Source: Bacteroidota bacterium
GTDB lineage: Bacteria > Bacteroidota > Bacteroidia > JACCXN01
Length of the DNA: 5,275 nt
Direction of reading: 5' to 3'
NCBI GenBank assembly: GCA_013696965.1
Contig: JACCXN010000069.1
Location: 1 to 5,275 of the forward strand
In this document: one piece after another, positions 689 through 5,275 of the stretch
Layout of the letters: the number at the start of each line of letters is the position of its first letter
Position numbering within the stretch: position 1 is the stretch's first letter
Notes under the pieces: model-generated
Seen by the model: only the letters and a program-made list of their open reading frames with translations
Told to the model about the DNA's origin: nothing
The model's database searches: none
Program-made: the position numbers and the translations under genes

Positions 689-2854
689 ATGACAATGCGA
701 AAAATAGCAGCAGATATTTTTTTGTTACCCATTTTATTTTTCATGGTAACTTGCTTTTTACAGGCACAAACAGATACTGTTCCGGCAGCATCCAAGCTAT
801 CTGAACTCACCCTTGAGGAATTAATGAACATGGAAGTTGTTACCGCTTCCGGTTCTGAACAAAAAATAACTGAAGCCCCCGCTACAATGCTCGTGGTTAC
901 TTCGCGTCAGATTAGCGAGAGAGGGTATGAACAACTAAGCGATGTGCTACGCGATCTTCCAGGGGTTGATTTAATACATACTTACGGACGGGCCCCAACT
1001 TTTATTACTTTCCGAGGTATGTATGGCGATGAAAACAAAAGAGTACTATTGATGATTGATGGAATTGTAGAGAACAGTATTATGGGTGGTTATGAAATGG
1101 CAGGGCCTGCTTATAGCCTGTTTAATGTTGACCGTATAGAAATAATGTGGGGCCCTGGCTCGGCACTTTATGGCGCCAATGCGTTTAGTGCTGTGATTAA
1201 CATTATTACCAAAAAAGGGGCAGAAATAAATGGAATCCATTATCAGAAGGGTTATGGTAGTTTTAATACCCAAACTGAAAATGTAATGTTCGGGTTAACA
1301 AAATCAGGCCCGCCAGAAGGAGCAATCATAGATTTAGCTGTTTCAGCTTCATTATACAATACAGACGGCCCACGTTTTACCAATAGGCACCCCCGCTATT
1401 CCAACTCCTATGTTGACAATGCCTGGTCGTTTAATGGAAATGTTACCCATACTATTAAAAAATTTAAAACAACTTTGGGCGGACGTATTTATCAAACTCC
1501 AAGTGGCTGGGGAACAATAACCGCCTCGCCCACTATGCTTATAGGACTTCCTTCGCAAGGAATGGGAAATACCGGAAATGGTGGCACAATGCAAGCCATT
1601 TTTAATGGAGAAAGGCCATCCCTTTTTGAAAGTTTCGCACGAACCGCTTTCTTGAGAAGCCAGTTTACCCCCAACTCAAAAATCACCCTCCTAGTTGAAG
1701 GGCAATACAGAAAAACAGGATCGGAGGAAAATTCATATATATATAGCAATTTGCCTGAGACGGGATACCTGAGCAGAAATCCCCTAACATATTTTGCCAA
1801 TCGCATCAGGGCTGATGTTTCTGCCACTTTTGCAATTACGGAACAACAAAGATTTTCCGCAGGTATCCTTTACTTCCAGGACAACCTGGAACGTGGGGTA
1901 AGAGGGTTTGTTCCTGATACCTTGTTTGATACCATTCAAAATATACCTGTAACCAATGTTTATGCAACATTTAAGCCCAGGGAATTCACAATACAGAATA
2001 ACATCGGGGTATTTATGCAATACATTTTGAAAACAACTTTACTCAATAAAACAAACTTTACAGCAGGATGGCGAATTGACAACAACAGCATCTACGGCAA
2101 CACACTTAATCCGAGGGCAGGAATTATCAACCAGCCAAATGAAAAACTTACTTTCAAAGTGCTGGCTGGATCTGCATTTCGTGGGCCCAGCAACTTTGAG
2201 CTATATACTGTGGTGGGAGGGAGCATAGCCAATCCGGACTTGATTCCTGAAAAAATTCAGACCTATGAACTGAATATTATTTATTACCCTATAAAAATTT
2301 TAATGGTTCAGGGTAATTTGTTCCAGAACCACCTTAAAGATATAATTGTCCAGGATGTGCCGATTGGAGGTGGCAGGAGCCAGATCCTGAATATTGGCAC
2401 AGCCACCACTAGAGGGCTGGAAGCCAAGTTTGAAATTATTCCTTCAAATTCATTTTCAGCATTCGTGAACTATACTTTGCAGGAAGGGAAACAAGATGAT
2501 GGAAACATGGAAAATGAAATACCCAACATTGCAAGGGCAAGGGCAAATATTGGTATTTCAATGTTACTGTCAGATCTTGTAAACATCAGCCTGATTGCAA
2601 ACTGGGTGGGAGCCCGTTCTGTGGCTGAAACCAATCCCCTTAATAAAGTAAATGGGTATTTCATTCCTAATCTTGTAATCACCACAAACAAAATATTTGA
2701 TAATCGTGTAAGCGCAAGTTTAAACATAGAGAACCTTTTTAATCAAACTTACTATGATCCCGGAATAAGGGCGGCAAATGGAAATTTCTATGGGACAGTG
2801 CATGAACAACTTGGAATAAACGGGTTCTTTAAAATTTTGTTGAGGATTTTTTAA
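689..2854 (+). CDS. TonB-dependent outer-membrane receptor (721 aa, BtuB/CirA-like size)
   Basis: Outer-membrane active transporter: a 22-strand barrel closed by a plug and energised by TonB-ExbBD. Residues 1-26 are a Sec signal peptide (basic MRK, hydrophobic core about 9-24, likely cleavage in LQAQ near residue 26). EVVTASG (49-55) sits where the TonB box is expected. The plug spans about 60-177: APATMLVVTSRQIS, LRDLPGVD (88-94), FITFRGM (105-111), VLLMIDG (119-125), DRIEIMWGPGSALYGANAFSA (148-168), then VINIITKKG. The barrel follows, with the characteristic SLNIENLFNQTYYDPG near the end (677-692) and a C-terminal Phe, as expected for BAM insertion. Only ~30 residues lie between signal peptide and plug, so there is neither a FecA-type signalling domain nor a carboxypeptidase-like N-domain, and it is too short for SusC. 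The ATG at 689 has an A-rich leader; ATG at 695 is a near-equivalent alternative. The substrate cannot be told. It is first in the operon with the YfiR-like and kinase genes. Confidence 0.95.
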   Translation: MTMRKIAADIFLLPILFFMVTCFLQAQTDTVPAASKLSELTLEELMNMEVVTASGSEQKITEAPATMLVVTSRQISERGYEQLSDVLRDLPGVDLIHTYGRAPTFITFRGMYGDENKRVLLMIDGIVENSIMGGYEMAGPAYSLFNVDRIEIMWGPGSALYGANAFSAVINIITKKGAEINGIHYQKGYGSFNTQTENVMFGLTKSGPPEGAIIDLAVSASLYNTDGPRFTNRHPRYSNSYVDNAWSFNGNVTHTIKKFKTTLGGRIYQTPSGWGTITASPTMLIGLPSQGMGNTGNGGTMQAIFNGERPSLFESFARTAFLRSQFTPNSKITLLVEGQYRKTGSEENSYIYSNLPETGYLSRNPLTYFANRIRADVSATFAITEQQRFSAGILYFQDNLERGVRGFVPDTLFDTIQNIPVTNVYATFKPREFTIQNNIGVFMQYILKTTLLNKTNFTAGWRIDNNSIYGNTLNPRAGIINQPNEKLTFKVLAGSAFRGPSNFELYTVVGGSIANPDLIPEKIQTYELNIIYYPIKILMVQGNLFQNHLKDIIVQDVPIGGGRSQILNIGTATTRGLEAKFEIIPSNSFSAFVNYTLQEGKQDDGNMENEIPNIARARANIGISMLLSDLVNISLIANWVGARSVAETNPLNKVNGYFIPNLVITTNKIFDNRVSASLNIENLFNQTYYDPGIRAANGNFYGTVHEQLGINGFFKILLRIF

Positions 2855-3447
2855 TGAAAAAGATAGGGAGGTATATCAGTTCTGCTGTTCATGTATTTAA
2901 GATGCGCAAGGTATGCCAGTTAATCTTTTGTTCATGCCTGTTCAATTCTTTTCTTTTTATTTTGATCACTGGCTTTGCTGTTAAACCTCAATCGGAAGCG
3001 GAAGAATACAATTTAAAAGCAGCCTTTATTTATAATTTCACCATGTATATTGAGTGGAGTGGTTTTATTGCGGAAGAGGAATTTATTATAGGTATAATTG
3101 GAAACTCACAAATTAATGAACCCCTTGCCCAAATTGCCCGCACAAAAACTGTAAATGGTAAAAAAATAATTATCCAGAATTTCGACAACCCGGAAGAAAT
3201 AATTTTTTGCCACATACTTTTTATTTCGCGCGATACCACATTTCCACTTAAAACTATCCTTGCAAGGGCAAATTTTAATGGAACACTAATTGTAAGTGAA
3301 AAAAGAGGATTTGCAGAACAAGGGACAGCAATTAATTTTGTTATAGACAATGATAAAGTGAAATTTGAGGCAAATACAAAAGCAATAAGATCAGCAGGTT
3401 TAACTGCCAGTTCCCAATTGTTGAAATTGGCCCGAATAGTTGAATAA
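2854..3447 (+). CDS. YfiR/DUF4154-family periplasmic protein
   Basis: Small periplasmic regulator. In P. aeruginosa, YfiR binds and represses the inner-membrane protein YfiN. Family hallmarks seen here are EYNLKAAFIYNFTMYIEW (51-68), FIIGIIG (77-83), the IIFCHILFIS core (116-125), then GFAEQGTAINFVIDNDKV (152-169) and a C-terminal SAGLTASSQLLKLAR (180-194). A hydrophobic export signal covers about residues 18-41, with cleavage possible near SEA (47-49). The ATG overlaps the receptor stop by one base (TAATG), which indicates translational coupling, and GAGG lies 8 bases upstream. That start gives an unusually long N-region; ATG at 2902 (Met17, MRKVCQ) would give a more typical signal peptide. 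The mature part has a single cysteine (C119), so the paired disulfides described for Pseudomonas YfiR cannot form. The 197-residue length fits the family. The partner is probably the CHASE8 kinase encoded next. Confidence 0.93.
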   Translation: MKKIGRYISSAVHVFKMRKVCQLIFCSCLFNSFLFILITGFAVKPQSEAEEYNLKAAFIYNFTMYIEWSGFIAEEEFIIGIIGNSQINEPLAQIARTKTVNGKKIIIQNFDNPEEIIFCHILFISRDTTFPLKTILARANFNGTLIVSEKRGFAEQGTAINFVIDNDKVKFEANTKAIRSAGLTASSQLLKLARIVE

Positions 3448-3448
3448 A

Positions 3449-4882
3449 ATGGAAGCGTTTAAAAACATATCTATAAGAAACAAGCTGATTGTAATTCAGT
3501 TGGCAACTGCATTTATAGCTGTGCTGATTTGTTCTGTAATTTTTGTCATTATCACCATAAATACATTTAAGGAAGCTGAAATAAAAAACAAATATTCACT
3601 TGCTGAAATTGTGGGTGTTAATGCAGCCCCTACACTTCTTTTTGATGACAATTCTGCTGCAAATCAAATTCTTGAGGAATTAAAAAGCAACCCTTCCATT
3701 CTGAACGCAATTATACTTGATAAGACAGGAAAAGAATTTGCCAAATATTCCAAAGAGGGCGAAGAAGATTTTTCTTTTTCAAATCTTGATAAAAAAGACA
3801 TTACAGCAAAAAGGCTTATCGGCAATGAATTTATTGTGAGGTATAAAATTTTCCATGAAAAAGAGTTCCTTGGTTCAGTAATTTTAAAATCAAAAATGGC
3901 CGATCTTAATAATATTATTTATAACTATATAAAAGTTGCTGCCTTCGTTTTATTTACCGGACTAATTGTTGCCCTGTTAATTTCAGTATTTCTCCAACGC
4001 TTGTTATCAAATCGCTTGTTATCACTAGTAAAAAAAACCAAGGAAATAACAGAAACTGGCGATTATTCCAGTATGATTTTATTTGAAGGGAAGGACGAGA
4101 TAGCGGTTTTGTCGAGGGCGATTAATAAAATGCTAGGGCAAATAGAAAAAACACAAGACAACCTTAAAGAAGCAAACATACACCTGGAAGAACTTAACTT
4201 ACATAAGGAGAAGACACTTTCTGTACTTTCGCATGATTTAAGAAGCCCCTTAAACTCCATTATCGGAACCTCTGAACTGCTAAAGGCAAATTTCGATAAT
4301 ATGAACAGGGCTGATTTACAACAAATGCTCATTTTGATTCATAAATCATCGAAACGCTTGTCAGATATGCTGAACAATTTAGTGGAATGGGCAAGAATAA
4401 AATTTGCATCTGAAATATTTTCTCCCGAAAAAATTCAAATTTGCATGGTGGTGAAAGATGTTTTTGATATGCTTAGTGAAAATGCCCTCGGAAAAGGAAT
4501 CAGCCTGCAAAATAAAATCATTGAAAATGTTTTTGTTTGGGCTGATGGAAAAATGTTACACTCTATTCTTCAAAATTTAATTTCAAATGCGATTAAATTT
4601 ACTCCCGAGGGAGGTAAAATTACTGCAACATCCGAAACAAGAAACAATGAATCTGTCATCAGGATAATTGACACGGGCCATGGCATGTCAAAAGAAGCGC
4701 AGGAAAAACTTTTCACACCACAGGTTGATTCCCTCTCGGCAAGTAGACAAGAAAAAGAAGGTGCCGGAATAGGGTTGTTAATAGTAAAGGGCTTTGTTGA
4801 AAAAAATAGCGGTAAAATTTGGGTGGAAAGTGAGCAAGGAAAAGGCACTTCAATGATTTTCACACTTCCTTTGACACATTAG
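3449..4882 (+). CDS. CHASE8-HAMP sensor histidine kinase
   Basis: Inner-membrane two-component sensor kinase of 477 residues. TM1 is about 13-38. The periplasmic part (about 40-158) matches the CHASE8 pattern found in YfiN-type proteins: LAEIVGVNAAPTLLFDD (51-67), ILEELKSNPSILNAII (74-89), DKTGKEFAKY (91-100), then a GSVILKSKM strand (142-150). TM2 is about 161-182, HAMP about 183-235 with DEI (216-218), then a short coiled coil (about 230-256). HisKA follows with the H-box SHDLRSP (phospho-acceptor His262). HATPase_c has the N-box LQNLISNAIKFT (N376, N380), the G1 box DTGHGM (408-413), F422, the G2 box GAGIGL (438-443) and GKGT (464-467). All catalytic motifs are intact. There is no receiver or GGDEF domain. 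I chose ATG 3449, one base after the YfiR stop; an in-frame TTG at 3440 would add three residues and overlap YfiR. No Shine-Dalgarno is visible, so coupling is likely. The cognate response regulator is not in the window. Confidence 0.95.
   Translation: MEAFKNISIRNKLIVIQLATAFIAVLICSVIFVIITINTFKEAEIKNKYSLAEIVGVNAAPTLLFDDNSAANQILEELKSNPSILNAIILDKTGKEFAKYSKEGEEDFSFSNLDKKDITAKRLIGNEFIVRYKIFHEKEFLGSVILKSKMADLNNIIYNYIKVAAFVLFTGLIVALLISVFLQRLLSNRLLSLVKKTKEITETGDYSSMILFEGKDEIAVLSRAINKMLGQIEKTQDNLKEANIHLEELNLHKEKTLSVLSHDLRSPLNSIIGTSELLKANFDNMNRADLQQMLILIHKSSKRLSDMLNNLVEWARIKFASEIFSPEKIQICMVVKDVFDMLSENALGKGISLQNKIIENVFVWADGKMLHSILQNLISNAIKFTPEGGKITATSETRNNESVIRIIDTGHGMSKEAQEKLFTPQVDSLSASRQEKEGAGIGLLIVKGFVEKNSGKIWVESEQGKGTSMIFTLPLTH
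3998..4027 (+). repeat. 15-bp imperfect tandem repeat inside the kinase gene at the TM2-HAMP junction
   Basis: Two adjacent 15-base units (3998-4012 and 4013-4027) share their first 12 bases, CGCTTGTTATCA, and differ in the last three. They are in frame and encode RLLSN then RLLSL (residues 184-193), at the membrane exit where HAMP helix 1 begins. Confidence 0.8.
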
Positions 4883-5192: not shown

Positions 5193-5232
5193 AAAAGGGA
5201 GTAGAAACGCAAGTTTATCTACTCCCTTTTTT
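5193..5232 (+). terminator. Strong intrinsic terminator, probable end of the operon transcript
   Basis: The outer stem AAAAGGGAGTAG (5193-5204) pairs with its complement at 5219-5230. The stem continues with AAAC (5205-5208) pairing GTTT (5213-5216), past one unpaired A at 5217, and is capped by a GCAA tetraloop (5209-5212) of the stable GNRA type. The T-run 5227-5232 follows. The left-hand A-run would also give a U-rich tail to minus-strand transcripts, so it may act in both directions. Confidence 0.88.
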
Positions 5233-5275
5233 GTATTTTGTATCAGATTCAAAAGCCTAATATACATGCTGGTAC
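5233..5275. other. Right edge, nothing assignable
   Basis: These 43 bases after the terminator contain no supported gene. An ATG occurs at 5264-5266, but only a few codons remain before the edge, so it cannot be judged. Confidence 0.4.

Follow-up and report, generated by a model that had tools for sequence, protein, structure and literature searches.

A gene order in which a TonB-dependent receptor (TBDR) gene is followed by genes for a YfiR-like periplasmic protein and a sensor kinase is found repeatedly, and far beyond chance, across at least six bacterial phyla or classes. This TBDR version is a real, widespread and uncharacterised variant of the YfiR-YfiN module. Our case lies on contig C69 of a Bacteroidota genome, one of 106 contigs in the assembly; the window that we analyzed is this entire contig of 5275 bp. 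Three forward-strand genes, at 689–2854, 2854–3447 and 3449–4882, encode a TBDR, a DUF4154/YfiR protein and a CHASE8-HAMP-HisKA-HATPase kinase, as assigned by Pfam. The first two share one base (TAATG), and the second and third are separated by one (TAA-A-ATG), with the kinase starting at the ATG at 3449; the list of open reading frames gives a TTG at 3440. This arrangement and these protein families had been described in an earlier note on this DNA, and the open reading frames and Pfam searches confirm both.

The recurrence emerges from a search for DUF4154 in random genome draws from Bacteroidota and from groups centered on Acidobacteria, Verrucomicrobia, Desulfobacterales, Nitrospirae and Gammaproteobacteria loci, the last defined by class and all others by phylum. 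Neighboring genes were typed with profiles built for this analysis on the DNA around each DUF4154 locus. A TBDR gene lies directly upstream, on the same strand, of 69 of 124 YfiR genes in these six phyla or classes, and adjoins a further 14 of the 124 in another orientation. A CHASE8 gene lies directly downstream of YfiR in 89 of 124 cases, and the complete order is present in 54 of 124. Thus, the conserved gene order that the earlier note had expected, and for which this survey was its own refutation test, is borne out. Over all loci with an upstream neighbor, TBDRs occupy position −1 in 127 of 202 cases, position −3 in 6 of 166 and position −4 in 1 of 109. This distribution bears directly on the idea of an ordinary neighborhood in which receptor and relay are functionally unrelated. 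TBDR genes are indeed common, with 16 plug matches in the window genome, but the positional enrichment is overwhelming; it rules out a chance neighborhood, so that this explanation is already refuted and retains next to no probability. A scan of named genomes, biased to similar YfiR proteins, agreed with this result and extended it to other groups, among them KSB1 and Armatimonadota. Annotated plasmids include two related cases: pSRL1 of Sphingobium indicum carries genes for a TBDR, YfiR and an ATP-binding protein, and a Pseudoalteromonas plasmid carries genes for a TBDR, YfiR and an EAL protein. The plasmid search returned no near DNA match to the operon itself.

YfiR proteins are known mainly from the YfiBNR systems of proteobacterial pathogens (YfiBNR in Pseudomonas aeruginosa, DgcN-YfiR-YfiB in Escherichia coli and HmsCDE in Yersinia). 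The window operon shares with these the predicted YfiR fold, the FEAN/Ile surface, a CHASE8/PAS-HAMP inner-membrane sensor with an AAVVF-type Phe, and the provision of one component per envelope layer. It differs in both output and input. The YfiBNR output is a GGDEF diguanylate cyclase, whereas the window kinase has HisKA and HATPase_c domains; and where YfiBNR has the OmpA-like lipoprotein YfiB, the window has a TBDR, with no OmpA-like gene on the contig. Across the draws, 89 of 137 YfiR genes have a TBDR gene within 3 kb and 1 of 137 has an OmpA-like (YfiB-type) neighbor, the latter count coming from a simple pattern that could overlook others. The earlier note had described the operon as rewired from YfiBNR. 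The exchanges of output and of input, with the TBDR replacing YfiB, stand, but derivation from YfiBNR is no more than one possible direction: the TBDR arrangement is commoner in the draws than the YfiBNR type, so that evolution may have run either way. The nature of the signal that activates YfiBNR has been called a central open question (PMC3375315). That YfiR's usual neighbor in the drawn genomes is a TBDR suggests a concrete input.

The YfiR gene (2854–3447, +) encodes a secreted periplasmic protein of 197 residues that matches DUF4154 'YfiR/HmsC-like' (PF13689, 2.7e-37) and scores far below the cut-off of NF053586, the NCBIfam regulatory YfiR family (26.8 of 85 bits). Its AlphaFold2 (AF2) model has a pLDDT of 89 and finds its best PDB match in P. 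aeruginosa YfiR (TM score ~0.8, 17% identity); the fold also matches the solute-binding proteins 3LFT and 3LKV. In an ungapped alignment stretch, F171-E172-A173-N174 and I178 (3364–3387, +) correspond to F162-E163-A164-N165 and I169 of P. aeruginosa YfiR, whose E163 and I169 lie on a surface common to YfiN and YfiB (published work including PMC4887326). The kinase (3449–4882, +; 477 residues, without a receiver domain) contains CHASE8 (PF17152, 2.1e-14; residues 45–146, 3581–3886, +), HAMP, HisKA (1.1e-12) and HATPase_c (5.1e-26) domains. Its H, N, G1 and G2 boxes are intact, and the sequence motif SHDLR places the phospho-acceptor at H262 (4232–4234, +). These motifs favor the phosphotransfer output that had been proposed for it.

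How the two proteins may meet is suggested by the segment VNAAPTLLF of CHASE8 (residues 57–65, 3617–3643, +), equivalent to the 'AAVVF' motif of YfiN, which binds YfiR (PMC3375315). Its F65 is Phe in 96% of 168 YfiR-linked CHASE8 domains; the Ala-Ala next to the conserved Phe is replaced by Pro-Thr in the window. Covariation between the YfiR C-terminus and the AAVVF segment, a block chosen from published genetics after an unfocused run had placed some pairs there, exceeds that of within-group re-pairing (0 of 300 trials exceed it), although re-pairing preserves kinship at the group level only, so that co-inheritance can inflate the signal. The block ranks in the top 1–2% of equal-sized blocks, and other such blocks outscore it. 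Distances between YfiR proteins co-track strongly with those between their CHASE8 partners (r = 0.71; null 0.44 ± 0.04). The pairing of YfiR with CHASE8 after the manner of YfiR and YfiN, another proposal of the earlier note, thus finds sequence-level backing in the conserved Phe and FEAN/Ile positions, the localized covariation and the co-tracking. These are support and not proof of a contact that probably joins the C-terminal face of YfiR to the AAVVF-like segment. The co-tracking further suggests a stable YfiR-CHASE8 core with exchangeable receptors.

Good evidence that YfiR acts as the kinase input and that the receptor probably belongs upstream comes from the best source that we have, six proteins from the Bacteroidota draws in which DUF4154 is fused to a signaling output domain and CHASE8 is absent. 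Each consists of DUF4154, a polar, heptad-like and coiled-coil-like linker of ~139–150 residues, a transmembrane helix and an output domain. Five are histidine kinase fusions with linkers of 143–150 residues (L064:4079-6409, L065:3024-4964, L490, L491 and L492), and a TBDR or TBDR-like barrel gene lies directly upstream of all five. The exception is the window genome's own fusion (L066:3800-5656, contig C94), in which DUF4154, a coiled-coil-like stretch of ~139 residues and a transmembrane helix precede a SpoIIE-type phosphatase domain, and which no TBDR gene adjoins. Pfam recovers DUF4154 together with HisKA/HATPase_c in one fusion and together with SpoIIE in that of the window genome. Since the six fusions align end to end, the constant linker length was inherited and does not reflect six independent events. 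As a continuous helix, the linker would measure about 21–22 nm, which is near the figure usually given for the width of the periplasm, so that such a rod would span it.

The receptor itself (689–2854, +) is a 721-residue protein with a signal peptide, an N-terminal segment, a TonB box, a plug and a β-barrel. Plug (5.8e-18) and TonB_dep_Rec_b-barrel (3e-32) matches, together with a TonB-box-like stretch, identify it as a TBDR. Its model (mean pLDDT 81) has the ordinary transporter fold, nearest to BtuB, Cir, FepA and PfeA. Pfam finds no STN signaling domain in it, and the plug begins near residue 61. The TonB-box-like EVVTAS (residues 49–54, 833–850, +) aligns to the same region of Cir, VVTASSVEQ. 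Just N-terminal of it lies LSELTLEELMN (residues 37–47, 797–829, +), of which AF2 predicts residues 42–46 as a short helix. This is the window's form of an LxxLSLEELMN segment that is common to YfiR-linked receptors and enriched among them. Among the plug-model loci of nine genomes, 8 of 30 have the segment, 7 beside a YfiR gene and 1 unresolvable; none of the other 22, which lack it, was found beside YfiR. In a search with a profile of the segment, DUF4154 is found within 5 kb of 14 of 25 (Bacteroidota) and 24 of 32 (Acidobacteria draw) matches of ≥30 bits that include the segment, as against 0 of 14 matches without it, a count that is partly circular in that the profile was built from YfiR-linked receptors. 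The solved receptors that this profile retrieves match only its second half, and of the 16 plug matches in the window genome only the window receptor matches it. The segment is not exclusive to YfiR linkage. Several TBDRs with the motif stand alone, and at L514, L515, L516, L517, L519 and L521 LSLEELMN-type profile matches occur with neither YfiR nor a kinase adjoining. One motif-bearing TBDR first counted as unlinked has an adjoining divergent YfiR gene.

Our proposal, to which we give about an even chance, is a three-layer envelope relay that runs from the receptor through YfiR and CHASE8 to phosphotransfer. At the outer membrane, the TBDR would sense or import a ligand. YfiR would serve as a periplasmic go-between, engaging on one side the receptor, probably at the receptor's periplasmic N-terminal segment, and on the other the kinase's CHASE8 domain. 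A receptor that is occupied or energized would alter the amount of YfiR on CHASE8, this occupancy would switch kinase autophosphorylation, and the kinase would pass phosphate to a response regulator encoded elsewhere in the genome. The contact between TBDR and YfiR is one that we infer, and by analogy with YfiBNR YfiR is assumed to repress the kinase. If the relay holds, outer-membrane receptors gain a signaling route that does without an STN domain. More tentatively, the receptor's state might be handed over at the outer membrane by the LSLEELMN segment, either to a diffusible YfiR bound for CHASE8 or, in the fusions, through the periplasm-spanning coiled coil straight to the kinase. This would define a further class of TBDR signaling besides STN/anti-sigma transducers and cargo-sensing kinases, and would make the TBDR the prevalent YfiR context, with YfiBNR a special case.

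Several points weigh against the relay, among them the limits already given for the covariation and for the segment counts. TBDR distances co-track weakly with those of YfiR or CHASE8 (r = 0.26), and TBDR-YfiR covariation shows a global excess with no hot spot on the receptor, so that direct contact between the two is unproven. Covariation therefore did not serve to locate where on YfiR the TBDR would bind. Not being localized, it also gives no support to the earlier note's suggestion that the signal could be substrate arrival or the state of the receptor plug. Some TBDRs without a YfiR gene in their vicinity likewise carry the LSLEELMN segment, and L033–L036 are YfiR-kinase pairs without a nearby TBDR. 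Finally, no response regulator was found within the window, whose contig stops 393 bases past the kinase, a stretch without a convincing gene.

The weak co-tracking of receptors is what would be expected if they were swapped by substrate, and so it also fits the main rival, in which YfiR reads the cargo: a small molecule brought into the periplasm by the TBDR would be bound by YfiR, much as by a small solute-binding protein, and YfiR in this loaded form would set the CHASE8 kinase, making contact with the TBDR unnecessary. The match of the YfiR fold to 3LFT and 3LKV points the same way, as does the binding of vitamin B6 or L-Trp by P. aeruginosa YfiR in a pocket that also takes F57 of YfiB (PMC4887326), and there is a precedent in PfeA-PfeS, whose kinase detects ferri-enterobactin after its import (PMC8001512). 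However, the affinities of P. aeruginosa YfiR for vitamin B6 and L-Trp are in the ten-millimolar range (PMC4887326), and this reading leaves aside the unusual periplasmic N-terminal segment common to YfiR-linked TBDRs. We consider it possible but rather improbable.

Less probable still, and in our judgment unlikely, is that the TBDR is an output, with the YfiR-kinase pair acting as an independent sensor of the state of the envelope or of redox conditions, and the receptor simply co-expressed with the pair or regulated by it. P. aeruginosa YfiR is partly a YfiB-independent redox sensor (PMC3375315), there is published precedent for the regulation of TBDR genes by a neighboring two-component system, and in some loci the TBDR gene is transcribed divergently. 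However, P. aeruginosa YfiR has Cys71, Cys145 and Cys152, whereas the mature window YfiR lacks all three and has a single cysteine, C119, equivalent to Cys110; the two Cys pairs of the YfiBNR redox mechanism are not present. Moreover, TBDR linkage holds across six phyla or classes, in the fusions, and at loci where no CHASE8 gene adjoins YfiR (L329, L389 and L400).

The proposed relay also differs from two known routes by which TBDRs signal. FecA-FecR-FecI likewise uses a TBDR as outer-membrane signal input; FecA transducers have an N-terminal STN domain and work with an anti-sigma factor, and the window TBDR has no STN match. PfeA-PfeS/PfeR of P. aeruginosa links a TBDR, with a fold close to that of the window receptor, to an inner-membrane sensor kinase, but it has no YfiR intermediary, and PfeS senses the imported siderophore directly (PMC8001512). 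Parts of the picture are already known. YfiN homologues whose output is a histidine kinase were described by Malone 2012, who proposed that a YfiR-PAS/HAMP core is combined with varying inputs and outputs (PMC3375315), so that the output-domain swap is published. The association of three proteins is named in NCBIfam, where NF053590, NF053591 and NF053592 (TOL_0244 TBDR, TOL_0243 YfiR-like protein and YfiR-associated sensor kinase) cover the same three families; the window proteins fall below all three cut-offs (TBDR 110 of 645, YfiR 122.5 of 125 and kinase 151.8 of 194 bits). Among open-licence papers we found no functional study of the TBDR-YfiR-kinase operon, and a literature match on an outer-membrane sensor concerned a different system. 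The operon allows ligand, receptor, go-between and kinase to be tested jointly.

Several minor observations concern the surroundings of these genes. In the window, positions 3–173 hold the 3′ end of a gene whose product is similar to biopterin-dependent aromatic amino acid hydroxylases (E = 3e-4, narrowly short of the Pfam cut-off). Two terminator-like stem-loops with A- and T-runs, at 222–252 and 5196–5236, flank the operon on our reading of the sequence and are not in the terminator scan output. At other loci, the gene after the kinase encodes a receiver-sized protein, a second kinase or a GGDEF protein, the last directly after the YfiR-linked kinase at L118, L128, L129, L130, L179 and others. 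In some lineages, the relay may therefore end in cyclic di-GMP by way of phosphotransfer. Tandem YfiR genes occur at L041:4200-5473, L403 and L395, alternating with TBDR genes in two of them. The window genome also contains a second stand-alone YfiR (L050:4034-4582, contig C99), followed by a TPR-like gene and then by a membrane sensor that, as read from its sequence and not from a family search, has an MCP-like N-terminus in place of CHASE8.

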